DNA of 50,088 nucleotides from Methanomicrobiales archaeon HGW-Methanomicrobiales-2 (GTDB lineage Archaea > Halobacteriota > Methanomicrobia > Methanomicrobiales > Methanoculleaceae): assembly GCA_002839645.1 (NCBI GenBank), contig PGYL01000011.1:1-50088 (forward strand), read 5' to 3'. The notes below the pieces were generated by a model, which worked only from the letters and a program-made list of their open reading frames with translations, made no database searches and was not told where the DNA came from. Shown piece after piece: positions 15,485-50,088 of this stretch. Within the stretch, counting starts at the first letter, position 1; each line of letters opens with the position of its first letter. Made by a program: the position numbers and the translations under genes.

Positions 15485-16891
15485 CTATATTTCCCCTTCC
15501 GGTGCCGGGGTAAGCTGTACTAGAGAGGTCTGCACCGGAGCAGGCGGCGCACCCCCGGTCACCTCCGTTGTATAGATATCCCACTGGCCGGTGTTGTTGC
15601 CCATCCAGACGATCACCCCCTCAGAGATCTCCGGATAGGACTGGCCGTACGGATCCTGGGTGATCGGCGTTTCCACTCCGGTGCTGAGATCGTACAGGTA
15701 GATGTCAAGGTTTCCGTTCCGCCAGTCTGAGTAGACCACATGGTCTCCGTCGACCGCAACCGCATCAGGATTTGCGGATCCACCTGTTATCTGTGTCACG
15801 TTCTCCGTCGATACGTCATAGAGGTATACGGCGGTCTCGTTATCGAGGGCGTTGATCCAGGCGACACGGTTGCCGTCACTCGAGACATCGGGATAACTAT
15901 CTTCACCAAAATCCCCCAGAAGTCTTACCTGCGGCTGCTCAAGGGACGCTACTGCGATGTCGAGGTCTCCTCCCTCGGTCTCATTATCCGCCCAGACGAT
16001 CGTGTTCCCCCCGATGTCGGTCAGGAGCTGCTCGTACGGATCGGCGGTCACGGGCGTGATGTTCCCGCTTGCAATATCGTAGAGGTATACATCGCCCAAT
16101 TCGTCTCCATCTATCCAGACAACGTAATCCTGTGAAACACCCGGGAATCCGGGCACTCCTGAGCCGTCCGTCACCTGCTGCAGTCCGCCTGAAACGATGT
16201 CATAGAGGAATACGATATCTCCTTTTGCCTGCGGGTCTACTCCCGTCCACACGACGTTGTTCCCGTCGATGGCAAGTTCGTACGGCAGCCCGATTGGTGT
16301 CGACGTCGAACTGGATATGGTTGAAGTGTTTCCTGATGGGATGTCGTAGTGTTGCACCGAGACTGACCTGTCGTCATACCAGACGATACTGTTCCCGGAT
16401 ATTGCTGGAAACAGCTTATCCCCCGGGCCGCTTGAAATTTGTGTCCCGGCACCTGCCGAATCGTTCTGCGGGGTCCGGGTAGGCTGTATCGCCGGCGGTT
16501 GTGGAGGCGCGACTGTCGGCGGTAGCGTTGACGTGACCGCTGGCGGTAGCGTAGGCGCGGCCGTTGGGACCGTTGGCGGTAGTGTAGGCGTGGCTGTTGG
16601 GACCGTTGGCGGTTGCGTGGGCGTGGCTGTTGGGACCGTTGGCGGCTGGACCGGCGGTAGCGCAGGCGTGGCCGTTGGGACTATTGGCGGTTCCGGTTCG
16701 ACTATTGGCTGCAGAGGTCCGACTACTGGCGGTCGCGTTGGCGTTGGTGTTGGCGGTGGCGGAGGTTCGACTACCAGCGGTTGATCCGGTTGCACGGGGC
16801 TAATAATCTGTGCCGAAGCGAGCCCCGCTGCACAAATGACGGCGATGACGACAATAGCGGCGGTCATCGCCCTGAAAAATATAATCCTCAT
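15485..16891 (-). CDS. Secreted TolB/YVTN-like beta-propeller protein with PT-rich stalk
   Basis: 468 residues from ATG 16891 (GGTGA 6 bases upstream; an upstream GTG adds three residues). Residues 1-28 are a signal peptide (MRIIFFRAMTAAIVVIAVIC, then AAGLASAQ). Residues about 30-145 are a Pro/Thr-rich stalk built of PTVPTATPTLPP-like units. From about 155 on there are repeated propeller blades with signatures such as GNSIVWYDDR, VWIDGDELGDVYLYDI, VVYSDWRNGNLDIYLYDL and VIVWMGNNTGQWDIY. It is probably anchored in or released from the cell surface. Binding partner unknown. Confidence 0.88.
   Translation of the reverse strand: MRIIFFRAMTAAIVVIAVICAAGLASAQIISPVQPDQPLVVEPPPPPTPTPTRPPVVGPLQPIVEPEPPIVPTATPALPPVQPPTVPTATPTQPPTVPTATPTLPPTVPTAAPTLPPAVTSTLPPTVAPPQPPAIQPTRTPQNDSAGAGTQISSGPGDKLFPAISGNSIVWYDDRSVSVQHYDIPSGNTSTISSSTSTPIGLPYELAIDGNNVVWTGVDPQAKGDIVFLYDIVSGGLQQVTDGSGVPGFPGVSQDYVVWIDGDELGDVYLYDIASGNITPVTADPYEQLLTDIGGNTIVWADNETEGGDLDIAVASLEQPQVRLLGDFGEDSYPDVSSDGNRVAWINALDNETAVYLYDVSTENVTQITGGSANPDAVAVDGDHVVYSDWRNGNLDIYLYDLSTGVETPITQDPYGQSYPEISEGVIVWMGNNTGQWDIYTTEVTGGAPPAPVQTSLVQLTPAPEGEI
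16500..16785 (-). repeat. Imperfect tandem repeats encoding the PT-rich stalk
   Basis: Units of about 33-36 bp (complement reads GGCGGTAGCGTAGGCGTGG-like on the plus strand) recur from 16500 to 16785 and encode P-P-T-V-P-T-A-T-P-T blocks. Such arrays are prone to copy-number change, which would alter stalk length. Confidence 0.7.
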
Positions 16892-45349: not shown

Positions 45350-48300
45350 TCAAAACACCCGCGCCCGCATCACCGTGAGCCGGACGCCTGCCGCCTCGTC
45401 GAGGTAAAACGTTCGCTCTTCACCGTGGGCCCGGCAGAACTCCTGGAGGTCGAGCATATGCGTAAGCCCCACCGCCGCCTTCTCGTTCTGCACGAGGTCG
45501 AGCGGCGGCTCCAGGAGCGGCCGGGGCAGAAAGACCATGCATTTGGACCGGCTCCGGGTCAGCGATACGTTCAGCCGGGTTCTGCTGTAGATGAACTCGG
45601 CCTCGGCAAGTGCGGTCTCGACATCGCTTACGCCGTAACTGACGATGACCGCCTCCGCCTCCTGGCCCTGCATCTTGTCGACGGTGTCCACGAACGGGTG
45701 GGACTCCCAGGCTCGAATATCGGCCAGGTGGTCCTGGATTGCCCCGATCTGGGCATGGTGCGGGCTGACGATGAAGAGCCCCTGCCGCCAGAAGAGGAAG
45801 TCCCCGTCCTCTGTCGCCGGATACGGCTTACCCGAGCAGGGGTCGAGGAGCCTCTCCCGGAGCGCTCCGGTCAGCCGGGCAACCAGCCCCGCCTCGATCC
45901 GGTTCTCCACCGTCGTCCGGACACCCTCGAGGACACAGAGCACGAGCGGGTACGCCGGATCGAGGATCCACTCGATAAACTCCTCCTCCTCCGGAAAACC
46001 CGGTGCAAGGGCGATCCGCTGCCGCCCGATCGCGTCGGTCGCCGGAGCGTAGCCGGTGCCGTAGAGCGTCTCCGCCGGGAACCCTGAGAGGGTGCGGTTC
46101 ATCCGCCAGTTCTCCTGGAGCTGGCAGGTATAGACGGGGCGGTCGGGGTCGTCACGGCGGCGGAGGTAGGCGAAGATGGAGTCATCGAGCCCCGGCAGCC
46201 CGTCTTCCGGCACCGGATACTCCCCCTGGACGACCGGGGGGAGCTGCAGGTCGTCGCCTGCGAGGACGAGCCTTCCCTCCCGGCCGAGCATCGGGAGCAC
46301 CATCGCCAGCTCGGCCGGCCTCATCTGCGACGCTTCATCGACGACTAAGAGGTCGAGGGACGGGAGGGACTTCTCGAGTTTGCCGAAACTGTGCACCGTC
46401 CCGCCGAGGAGGAGGGACGGGTAGCCGACGACGGTCTCGGCCCGGTCGTGGGGCAGCACTTCGAGGCTCCGTTCGCCTCTGGGCGTCCTGATGCTCTTTA
46501 ATTTGTAGATCGGCAGGCCTGCGGCAAGGTCGAACTCGTCGACGGACTCCTGCACCTTGATGAGCAGGTTCTCGACGGCGGCGTGGGTGAATGCCGCGAC
46601 ACCCACCCTGATACGCTCTCCGTGCGCCCTCCGTGCTTTGACGAGCGAGAGGATGGCCTTCGCGAGGAAATGCGTCTTCCCGGTCCCGGGCGGTCCCCAG
46701 ACGAGGGTCAGGCGGTTCGTCATCAGATGGGAAAACGCCCGGGCCTGGCTCTTAGTGAACCCGGCGCCGTGGACGAGCCGTTCTGCATCGGCGACGACCT
46801 CCCCGGGCTCACGGACCGGGGCGGCGAACCCCTGCGGGTCCCGGAGGAGGCGGATGAATGCGTTCTCCGGCTGCTCGTCCAGGGTGAGAAGGCGGTCGAC
46901 GTATCGCGGCACGACAAAATCGGTGAACCGGGGGTGCAGCACCGCGAGGTCGCCCTCGGCGAAGGGTGCGTGCTCCCGGCAGTAGGTCACCTCAAGGGCG
47001 AATCCCCTGACCTGTCCGGCTTTCCGGTCGACGATGCTGTCCCGGACCCTGGCAAAGCAGACTCCGCTCTTCCCCGGGTTCGGGCTGCTCCGGTAGCGGA
47101 GGTCGTCAAATGCGAGGAGGGCCTCTTCACCCGCATCCCCGTCCGGCACGAGGAGGTAACTGAATGCCTGCGACTGCTCGAAGAGCGAGAGGTCGAGAGG
47201 TGCGAGCACCTTCCAGAAGTTCCCCTCGCTCTTCCGCACAGGGATGCTTGTCCCGTCCCGGACCCTTACGGTCCACGGCCTGCTCCGGAGTTCCTGTATC
47301 CGCCGCGCACCCATGGTCGATTCGTACTCCGCGATGAAGAGGAGGCGGGATATCTCCGGCATGGCGGCATCCCACGAGCGGGGGAACCGGAAGTTCTCCG
47401 CCCACCGCACGAGGCTGCCCTTCACCCGTTCGCGGAGCCCGTCGAGCGCGCTCCCGGCCGCAAGCAGGCGGCGCGATATCTCCTGCCGGACCCAGCCTGC
47501 AGCCTCCGGTCTTGCCCCGCCCCACGCCATGATGATGGCGTCGCTCTTCATGGCGTTGCTCTGCTCGTTCCAGAAGAGGCTCGCCGGGGTCAGCTGGTAT
47601 GCGAAGCGCGAAGAAGGGATGGCGAGAAGGACCTCCGGCAGACGGAGCGTGAACGGGACGGGGAGCGCAAGCAGCCGCCGGATCTCCCGGGTGAGGACGA
47701 CAAGCGGGAACGGGACCGAACTGCTCGGGTGGCTGGACCCAAGAGCGACCCCGGGGTCCTGGTAGTAGAACCGCAGCTGCAGGGCATCTTCTGCGGTCGC
47801 GGGGTCTTTTATCGCCTCTTCGAGCAGCCGGGTGAAGAGTTCCGTTTCGTAGGTGTCGTAGACGTAGGTCTGCACCGATTTCCGGTCCGGCCAGTCCCTG
47901 CCCTGGTTATAGTCGTGGACGGCCGCAAGTTCTGCGGTGAGTGCCCGGACAAACTCCTGCCGCACCCGCGTGCAGTCATCGGGGTGCGCGGCAACGAAGA
48001 CGGCTTCGTTCGAAGGCGTCCCGTAGACCGCTTCGCCCTTGATCCGCCGGAACCCGAGCGCGTAGACCCTGCCGGAGACGGGGTCCTTCTGGAGTGTCAG
48101 GATGATGCCGACGTCTTCGTAGATGGGGAGGGCAAGCGAGGTTGCGGCGAGCGGAACGACCTCTCCCGTGGTGAGCGCCCGGACGGTTGCCCGCAGGCGG
48201 TCGCCCTGATCGGCGAGCGACCCGCAGTTGTCGAGGTGCCGGTCGCTCCCGGGGTCCCGAAAAAACCTCTCCAGGTCGGCAAGCGTGTTGATGGAGAGAT

Positions 48301-49144
48301 CGGCGCTCCAGGGTGCTTGCCGGAGGTAACGCCGCCCGACCGTCGAGAGGCCCGGTATCTGCGAGACCGAGGCGGAGGCCACCGCCTCCTCGCGACAGTG
48401 GGAGTAAAACTCACAGGACTCACATCGTGAGGTGATATGCCAGGGCACGTCCTCCGGCGCGCCGGCAAGGATGCCCGGGAGACGGTGGCGGAGGAAGTCC
48501 TCGATCACCCGTATATTGAGGTGCAGGCTGAACGGTTCCGCAACGTCTGCTCCGGAGAGCCAGATCCCGGCCCGGGAGAGGTCGACCTTGAGATCGATTT
48601 TGAGCAGGTTTAAGGCGTGATCGAGGATAAGGGCATACAACGTTGCCTGGATCCGGTGACTGACGCTGAGGTCTTCGCTCGCCTTGATGTCGATGACCGA
48701 AAGTTGCGGCTCTCCGTTCGTCCCGGGCTCAAGCCTGATGAGATCGGGACGGCAGGGGGAGAACCGGTGCACCCCGGGTTCGAGACCGTAGTTGCGCAGA
48801 AAGTGGACCGAGACCGGGATGGTCGACTGGTAGATCGCCTCGCCCGGGGAGAGCCGGGGGAGGAGGTCGAAACTCTCCTCGATAGAGAACGAACGGTCGG
48901 AGAGGGGGCCTGTCCCGTCCGGGATTCGCACCCCTCCCGCCAGTCTGGTCTGGATAACCTCCTCTTCCCAGTGGATGCCTGCGTCCAGGAGGGCTCGCGT
49001 CACCGGGCTCCTGTCCATCGGAACCGCCGGGATGCCGGCTATTTCGCGCTCCTGCTCCGGGGTCGCGTGGTAGCGGAGGTAGCGTTCGCAGTCGTGGTAG
49101 AAGAACCAGCCGATGAGCGACGGGCTGAGGTTGAAGCGGGGCAT
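45350..49144 (-). CDS. Cas4-like nuclease fused to a Dna2/UvrD-type SF1 helicase
   Basis: 1264 residues. Residues 1-255 form a Fe-S nuclease: C19 (HDCERYL), D134 (RPDLIRL), D152-x-K154 (VIDIKAS), Q166 (QATLYAL) and C241, C244, C250 (CESCEFYSHC), the AddB/Cas4 pattern. A long middle (260-780) contains no clear motifs. The helicase occupies about 790-1240: GPPGTGKTHFLAKAI, VVDEASQMRPAEL, LAGDDLQLPPV, YTCQLQENWRMN and VDKMQGQEAEAVIVSYG followed by SLTRSRSKCMVFL. It is similar to TM0106/Dna2-type enzymes, probably in DNA repair or RNA/DNA flap processing. Confidence 0.9.
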   Translation of the reverse strand: MPRFNLSPSLIGWFFYHDCERYLRYHATPEQEREIAGIPAVPMDRSPVTRALLDAGIHWEEEVIQTRLAGGVRIPDGTGPLSDRSFSIEESFDLLPRLSPGEAIYQSTIPVSVHFLRNYGLEPGVHRFSPCRPDLIRLEPGTNGEPQLSVIDIKASEDLSVSHRIQATLYALILDHALNLLKIDLKVDLSRAGIWLSGADVAEPFSLHLNIRVIEDFLRHRLPGILAGAPEDVPWHITSRCESCEFYSHCREEAVASASVSQIPGLSTVGRRYLRQAPWSADLSINTLADLERFFRDPGSDRHLDNCGSLADQGDRLRATVRALTTGEVVPLAATSLALPIYEDVGIILTLQKDPVSGRVYALGFRRIKGEAVYGTPSNEAVFVAAHPDDCTRVRQEFVRALTAELAAVHDYNQGRDWPDRKSVQTYVYDTYETELFTRLLEEAIKDPATAEDALQLRFYYQDPGVALGSSHPSSSVPFPLVVLTREIRRLLALPVPFTLRLPEVLLAIPSSRFAYQLTPASLFWNEQSNAMKSDAIIMAWGGARPEAAGWVRQEISRRLLAAGSALDGLRERVKGSLVRWAENFRFPRSWDAAMPEISRLLFIAEYESTMGARRIQELRSRPWTVRVRDGTSIPVRKSEGNFWKVLAPLDLSLFEQSQAFSYLLVPDGDAGEEALLAFDDLRYRSSPNPGKSGVCFARVRDSIVDRKAGQVRGFALEVTYCREHAPFAEGDLAVLHPRFTDFVVPRYVDRLLTLDEQPENAFIRLLRDPQGFAAPVREPGEVVADAERLVHGAGFTKSQARAFSHLMTNRLTLVWGPPGTGKTHFLAKAILSLVKARRAHGERIRVGVAAFTHAAVENLLIKVQESVDEFDLAAGLPIYKLKSIRTPRGERSLEVLPHDRAETVVGYPSLLLGGTVHSFGKLEKSLPSLDLLVVDEASQMRPAELAMVLPMLGREGRLVLAGDDLQLPPVVQGEYPVPEDGLPGLDDSIFAYLRRRDDPDRPVYTCQLQENWRMNRTLSGFPAETLYGTGYAPATDAIGRQRIALAPGFPEEEEFIEWILDPAYPLVLCVLEGVRTTVENRIEAGLVARLTGALRERLLDPCSGKPYPATEDGDFLFWRQGLFIVSPHHAQIGAIQDHLADIRAWESHPFVDTVDKMQGQEAEAVIVSYGVSDVETALAEAEFIYSRTRLNVSLTRSRSKCMVFLPRPLLEPPLDLVQNEKAAVGLTHMLDLQEFCRAHGEERTFYLDEAAGVRLTVMRARVF

Positions 49145-49568
49145 GGGCGGTCTCGGTGGTCAGGGAGGGTCGGGAGCCCTCCCGGTTGTGACTCTTTGTT
49201 TGTGCGGTTGTGGGAAAACAGTTGTTACATATGGATAATTTTGAGTTCTGCATGGAGTACGGGCCACCCCATCGTGCGGGTTATCGGCCCGGGCGCGGTT
49301 CACCCCGCGCGGACATCGGGTCCTGCGCGCAACCGGGCAGCCGATCAGTCCTGTAGTTCCCCGGGAGATGACGCGCGCCCGTCTCCACGGCGGGGCTCTG
49401 TCCGGGGCGGGTGCAGTAAGATGGTCTGTGCGCTCTCTCCCCGGCAGATCCGGGGGTGCCGGCGCGGCGGTTGCCATGCGCGGGATCCGGACCTGGCGAT
49501 GAAGGGGCGGGTGTCAGGCCCGGGATGCCGGGATTCCGTGGAGGATGTTTCGTTTTAGCCTTCGTTTT
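49145..49568. other. 424-bp intergenic region, no gene recognised
   Basis: Upstream of the nuclease-helicase gene. It begins with a hairpin-forming stretch (GGGAGGGTCGGGAGCCCTCCC) and contains an AT-rich patch (49205-49245). Open frames here are without codon bias. Confidence 0.4.
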
Positions 49569-49704
49569 TGCATAATTATTATATACTCGTGGTGACAGAT
49601 GTTGTAACTCACAAGGGTGAGATGGTTCGGGGCGGTGTATTCCGGCCTGTTCCGTCATCTGTTCGGGATTTATTCCGGTCCGCCGGGATGAATGCCGGGC
49701 CAGA

Positions 49705-49827
49705 ACATAATGTTTATATGCAATTGGCTACAACATTATGTCTCACAAGGGTGATGCAGGTTCGGTCGGAACTCTTCGGTTCCGGCCGGGATCTGCAATG
49801 GGGCGAAAATTCCAGAAGAATTTTCGC
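49705..49827 (+). ncRNA. Candidate small structured RNA, module 2
   Basis: Arms ACATAATGTT (49705-49714) and AACATTATGT (49732-49741) enclose TATAT. A hairpin with stem GGTCGGAAC/GTTCCGGCC (one G-U pair) follows at about 49765-49788, then a perfect 10-bp stem GCGAAAATTC/GAATTTTCGC with a five-base loop (49803-49827). A transcript from about 49742 is predicted, not shown. Confidence 0.4.
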
Positions 49828-49845
49828 GTCAAATCCCGGAATGGG

Positions 49846-49974
49846 ACGTAATGTTTATATGCCTGAAGAACAAACATTATGTCCCTCACAGGTGAAATGT
49901 CTCGGCCTGATTCCGGCCGAATTCCCCTGTATTCAACAAAGGACATGACGATTCGAGTTCTCAAACCTCGAATC
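49846..49974 (+). ncRNA. Candidate small structured RNA, module 3
   Basis: Arms ACGTAATGTT (49846-49855) and AACATTATGT (49873-49882), one mismatch, 17-base spacer with TATAT. Hairpin TCGGCC/GGCCGA (49902-49920) and a second stem GATTCGAG/CTCGAATC (49950-49974) follow. Confidence 0.4.
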
Positions 49975-49984
49975 TGATGCAGGA

Positions 49985-50069
49985 AACAAATGTTTATATA
50001 GTTAGGAAATAAACATTGTTCTCCTGATGATGGAGAATCAACACGACCGCCATTGCGCGGGTTGATTCT
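49985..50069 (+). ncRNA. Candidate small structured RNA, module 4
   Basis: Arms AACAAATGTT (49985-49994) and AACATTGTTC (50012-50021), 17-base spacer with TATATA. A 9-bp stem AGAATCAAC/GTTGATTCT (50034-50042 with 50061-50069) follows. The sequence continues beyond the window. Confidence 0.35.
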
Positions 50070-50088
50070 GACGTTGGCATTGGCAATG

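Follow-up and report, generated by a model that had tools for sequence, protein, structure and literature searches.

A tandem TATA-box array at the end of a Methanoculleus contig, most probably the promoters and leader of a ribosomal RNA operon

Which transcript is served by a row of near-regularly spaced TATA boxes that runs up to the very end of a contig? The stretch of DNA analysed here, called the window throughout, comprises 50,088 bp and corresponds to contig C44 of a 2.78-Mb genome assembled in 69 contigs, with base 50088 as the contig end. Its last 0.5 kb carries TATA modules followed by hairpin-forming sequence, which a preliminary description based on the letters of the window took for an array of independently transcribed small RNAs. 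We have compared this region with its counterparts in related genomes, the named relatives being Methanoculleus, and examined its folding and its possible status as promoter, leader, operator, small-RNA array or coding frame.

Results

The modules and their parts

Four TATA-type boxes were located (Table 1), with spacings of 135, 141 and 139 bp, and the four modules about 140 bp apart of the preliminary description were thus recovered. The architecture assigned to all of them, a 10-bp arm and its complement separated by 17 bases, is exact for module 2, the sole module with perfect 10-bp arms and a 17-nt gap. In module 3 the arms extend to 14 nt with a gap of 15 and one mismatch, which becomes a G-U pair as RNA, and in module 4 the arms can be read as AATGTTTAT/ATAAACATT (gap 11) or as AATGTTT/AAACATT (gap 15), the latter being in register with the other modules. 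For modules 2 to 4 the observed palindrome match is reached in at most 1% of shuffles. Module 1 is without a palindrome, the best arrangement matching at 3 of 8 positions and being equalled by 94% of shuffled controls; its promoter, with the box ATTATAT and no palindrome, is weak and may be inactive. The CTCACA-GGTGA-like sequence said to follow the arms is found in modules 1 to 3 and is absent from module 4. The hairpins described in the bodies are indeed strong in modules 1 to 3, as the fold scores show. A box C/D-like reading of the body-closing GGTGA...CTGA and a kink-turn at 50024-50070 were both discarded by eye, since in each the pairs break the rule.

Table 1. Features of the array and its left neighbour (window coordinates; fold z, RNA fold z-score)
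Feature	Position	Strand	Remarks
Helicase/nuclease-like protein, AAA_11/AAA_12 (Pfam)	45350-49144	minus	1264 aa; left neighbour of array
Module 1 TATA-type box ATTATAT, fourth promoter before 16S	49578..49584	+	no palindrome
Module 1 leader RNA body, hairpins	49605..49700	+	fold z = -4.7
Module 1 start-proximal transcribed element CTCACAAGGGTGA	49608..49620	+	potential TCAC-AAGG-GTGA mini-hairpin
Third promoter before 16S (module 2)	49705..49741	+	TATA TTTATAT 49713-49719 in 10-nt palindrome, arms 49705-49714 / 49732-49741; homologous promoters upstream of 16S
Module 2 CTCACAAGGGTGA element	49742..49754	+	expected transcription start ~49738-49743, from TATA spacing
Module 2 leader RNA body, two long hairpins	49744..49845	+	fold z = -6.1
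Second promoter (module 3)	49843..49885	+	TATA 49854-49860 within 14-nt arms, 49843-49856 / 49872-49885; fold z = -3.7
Module 3 leader RNA body	49884..49985	+	fold z = -1.9; fold of homologous module conserved genus-wide
Module 3 CTCACAGGTGA element	49885..49895	+	expected transcription start ~49879-49884
First, 16S-proximal promoter (module 4)	49989..50017	+	TATA 49993-49999; AATGTTT 49989-49995, AAACATT 50011-50017; expected start ~50018-50023
Conserved 16S-leader hairpin GAATCAAC...GTTGATTC	50035..50068	+	similar type in most examined genera of the order
5' strand (beginning) of pre-16S processing stem, GACGTTGGCATTGGCAATG	50070..50088	+	pairs with post-16S spacer in relatives; contig ends ~60 bp before mature 16S

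Elsewhere in the window, a 33-bp unit, GACCGTTGGCGGTAGCGTAGGCGTGGCTGTTGG, is present in 3.4 tandem copies at 16535-16645. The helicase/nuclease-like protein is closely related to proteins of Methanoculleus, and Desulfobacterales encode relatives of 47-49% identity (L154, L155); judged by these matches, a transfer of its gene between domains is possible.

The array lies upstream of 16S rRNA

In a DNA search the region was found directly upstream of 16S rRNA in 28 of 35 genomes of the same genus; none of the 24 good-quality genomes lacked it. Viewing the sequence after base 50088 for further modules had been suggested in the preliminary description; in the relatives whose sequence continues, what follows is 16S rRNA, the archaeal 16S model of Rfam (RF01959) beginning 60 bp past the equivalent of that base. 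By homology and synteny, the gene would therefore lie about 60 bp past the contig end, outside the window and the assembly. A 16S rRNA match is missing from the entire assembly of the window genome, in which a second array occupies the start of contig C67, beside scpA. Since the assembly is devoid of 16S and repeated rRNA operons break assemblies, both contig ends are explained, and the array cannot be treated as a closed unit because the contig stops at 50088. The arrays of C44 and C67 share the end sequence GGCATTGGCAATG, and since both end there alike the two operons are probably identical past this point. An Rfam search of the window end returned no family at the gathering score, the best hit being a chance leucine-leader match.

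Synteny separates the array from its left neighbour. In genome G028 (L007/L140) the helicase gene of the window, four modules and the start of 16S stand in a row on a single contig, and at L141 and L143 the helicase gene adjoins the module array and the contigs break at about the same place. Conversely, none of the 17 related loci at which the helicase gene is flanked by 2.5 kb of sequence without an rRNA operon (L136-L139, L142, L145, L146, L148-L153, L156, L157, L159, L160) has modules. Thus, the array goes with the rRNA operon and not with the helicase. As in archaeal tandem rRNA promoter arrays, several TATA boxes with start-site spacing point to 16S, and they lie directly upstream of it in the relatives and, by synteny, in the window, which ends about 60 bp short. 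We consider it highly probable that the modules are the tandem promoters and the external transcribed spacer (5' leader) belonging to one of the two rRNA operons of a Methanoculleus genome, a reading carried by the position upstream of 16S (homology and synteny), the repetition, the TATA boxes, the conserved covarying leader fold and the processing stem.

Similar arrays across the order

As many as six promoters precede 16S in the scpA-linked operons of the genus; relative to the 16S start motif, their TATA boxes lie at about -163, -300, -442, -572, -717 and -863. A similar array is found beside scpA in the family's second genus. Read by eye, the majority of examined rRNA operons from other families of the order contain two to six TATA modules, and a CAAYATTGTTNCCTCACAA-like start region is frequent in these. 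A hairpin of the GGAGAACCAA...TTGGTTCTGACG type, similar to that at 50035..50068, precedes 16S in most of the examined genera of the order. The palindrome was rejected as an order-wide promoter feature, as by eye the other genera keep the CAAYATTGTTNCCTCACAA-like start region and not a matching left arm; the latter was seen in Methanoculleus and in at least one module of the sister genus. Given that the start region is shared, the right arm of the palindrome is part of an older start-region element.

Two promoter modules upstream of 16S at L096, from another family of the order, are near-identical over about 80 bp ending in TTTATATCCTGGAGCGCCCAATATTGTTA, and appear to be a recent module duplication, the way in which such arrays would grow. 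Start-proximal sequences also recur in tandem modules upstream of 16S at L110 (AACATAAGTATCTCGCGTTG) and at L108 (ACAACATGT.GATCCTCAAGT), and these are probably genus-specific versions of the start region.

A conserved leader fold and a processing stem

The aligned leader of 16 species, folded piecewise, gave energies 4 to 13 SD below column-shuffled controls per module, values that are generous because column shuffling loses dinucleotides. Leader modules 2 to 6 each contain 9-12 double-changed (compensatory) pairs. Compensatory changes in predicted helices, as looked for in a structured pre-rRNA leader, are found both in the promoter hairpin described below and over the whole leader. The bodies are successive pieces of a single pre-rRNA leader, and the predicted fold of this leader is retained genus-wide. 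Together with the post-16S spacer, the window end forms a pre-16S processing stem, with about 15-17 bp on each side of the internal loop GCGGAAA / ACGTAAA. Because the window end forms this stem, the sequence before it is leader and would be discarded.

Not every element of the preliminary description survives this comparison: a repeated promoter, a palindrome round the TATA box and a structured transcribed RNA behind it all stand, and the independent small-RNA genes do not. The small-RNA reading, in which each unit is transcribed and terminated separately under common regulation, accounts for promoter-like heads that repeat before hairpin bodies that differ. It is nevertheless very unlikely, as the modules run into 16S rRNA in every checked relative with downstream sequence, and those of the window all point towards a single 16S rRNA gene expected some 60 bp past the contig end; the conserved folds span downstream promoters, hence the read-through RNA is what has been conserved. 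A covariance-model search of the module had been put forward in the preliminary description; in model and pattern searches of 8 genomes, convincing matches were obtained at rRNA operons only; no unit was seen apart from another gene, the array being continuous with 16S. The coding alternative, a repeat-containing protein from the open frame of 126 aa at 49568-49948, had been left standing in the preliminary description. The frame is open, and yet it has no Pfam match and is not kept between species: indels in the homologous leaders are not multiples of three and break it, base pairing being retained. We regard this alternative as practically discounted.

A probable RNA hairpin over the 16S-proximal promoters

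An 18-pair hairpin was tested on 46 modules from the -300 and -442 positions. The model consists of an outer stem GCAGGAA/TTCCTGC, a middle stem AAYGTTT/AAACRTT, an ATAT bulge that is part of the TATA box, and an inner stem of 4 bp, which is missing from a minority of modules. Over the 46 modules, 86% of cells are paired, compared with 82% in shuffles and 37-47% when the model is slid; double-changed cells number 47 against 19 in shuffles, and the covariation score was reached by none of 500 shuffles. Column pair 18/43 is T-A in 34 modules and C-G in 12, with zero mismatches, under a module selection that permitted either letter on each side of this pair independently; the left variant ACATTT entered the selection after it had been sighted in L022, and that case is not selection-independent. 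At least 4 switches between T-A and C-G were counted on the 16-species tree, by a parsimony that scored the right-hand letter, with the left-hand letter changing along in every row, and on a tree whose branch support is partly low. In the outer stem, counted over related sequences, G-U cells outnumber A-C cells by 41 to 9, as is expected for RNA. From the same alignment RNAalifold alone recovers nothing beyond the middle stem plus one small hairpin close to the start. Conversion between modules is an unlikely source of the arm covariation: for example, L013 shares the inner sequence GTGTTGAAGCAC with L021 and L014, to which it is closely related, yet each of its arms departs from theirs at one position.

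The palindrome covaries genus-wide, has a bulge and favours G-U over A-C. A hairpin formed in the RNA over the TATA box and the start site is therefore a better reading of it than an operator bound by a protein. The operator is the main rival for the hairpin part alone and leaves the rRNA promoter array untouched; it holds that the arm symmetry serves a dimeric DNA-binding regulator that shuts off the rRNA promoters. The position of the arms is indeed one from which a repressor would keep TBP/TFB and polymerase off, their spacing is fixed at 15-16 nt, and in the genomes searched the palindrome was found at rRNA operons only. However, arm sequences differ between modules of one genome (AATGTTT and AACGTTT; AACATTT in L022) with the partner always matching, and the inner stem (GTGA/TCAC, GCGA/TCGC, GTCG/CGAC) pairs past the one-sided ATAT bulge, for which a symmetric DNA site has no counterpart; the G-U excess of the outer stem likewise speaks against it. 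Genome-wide model and pattern searches in 8 genomes did not detect the same site before other genes, the best non-rRNA match (E 0.0055), whose right arm is imperfect, falling in the TATA region of a thermosome-like gene. Taken with these observations, the operator seems to us unlikely.

Discussion

We propose that each TATA module would act as a separate promoter of the same rRNA transcript, with a start expected at each box, and that polymerases from upstream promoters would read through the downstream ones. The leader so made, up to about 0.5 kb here and 0.9 kb at the other copy, would later be cut off at the pre-16S processing stem. Between promoters the leader is predicted to fold into autonomous hairpins, and at the 16S-proximal promoters the stretch of DNA that begins shortly before the TATA box and reaches the expected start would also encode a hairpin of the read-through RNA. 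A larger number of promoters may raise and tune rRNA output. The likeliest role of the hairpins would be to keep a long untranslated leader compact whichever promoter is used; they may also guard it against early termination, decay, and interference or pairing with 16S. It is more doubtful whether the 16S-proximal promoters of Methanoculleus double as RNA elements, in which a conserved hairpin that includes the TATA box with the start region, and that would fold only in transcripts begun further upstream, would let passing transcription act on the downstream promoters or carry an archaeal rRNA antitermination or processing signal; we put this forward tentatively, as a possible specific role of the promoter hairpin in regulation.

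The preliminary description knew of no described family with this layout in methanogens; the tandem rRNA promoters of haloarchaea are a precedent. According to PMC4983044, Halobacterium cutirubrum has up to five rRNA promoters (Dennis 1985, cited therein), at least one of them growth-rate regulated; for the 16S of Haloferax volcanii, three start sites from dRNA-seq are given at -185, -293 and -444 (PMC4983044). What the array has in common with those of Halobacterium and Haloferax is a read-through leader and a series of TATA promoters located within about 0.2-0.9 kb before 16S. It differs from them in its regular spacing of 130-146 bp and in the number of modules, which reaches six in the genus; the covarying hairpin over the 16S-proximal promoters, observed here on modules of Methanoculleus, may be a further difference. 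The bacterial rrn leader, with its several promoters and boxB-boxA-boxC antitermination (PMC10250234), is alike in outline, since there, too, 16S is preceded by a structured leader that is not translated, and leader and trailer form a processing stem; here the promoters are archaeal TATA promoters, and we claim no membership in that class. The archaeal pre-16S leader/trailer stem is cut by the splicing endonuclease at a bulge-helix-bulge (PMC7714728); the last 19 bases of the window are the 5' strand of that stem, seen here as a stem with an internal loop, whereas the promoter hairpins, with one 4-nt bulge, are a different structure. We found no description of hairpin-spanned tandem rRNA promoters in the literature, and no paper on such arrays in Methanomicrobiales in its open-access part; a search for transcripts or mapped 5' ends from Methanoculleus likewise gave no result.

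With this finding it is settled that an rRNA operon lies at the contig end and that the supposed small RNAs are its leader. How rRNA output is set in archaea is poorly known beyond haloarchaea. If the promoter hairpin acts in control, it would represent a promoter-embedded control of rRNA synthesis, of which we found no archaeal description. With two or more promoter modules at most of the examined rRNA operons of a methanogen order, and with candidate starts and covariation in the leader fold to build on, the number and use of the promoters and the function of the leader become testable.
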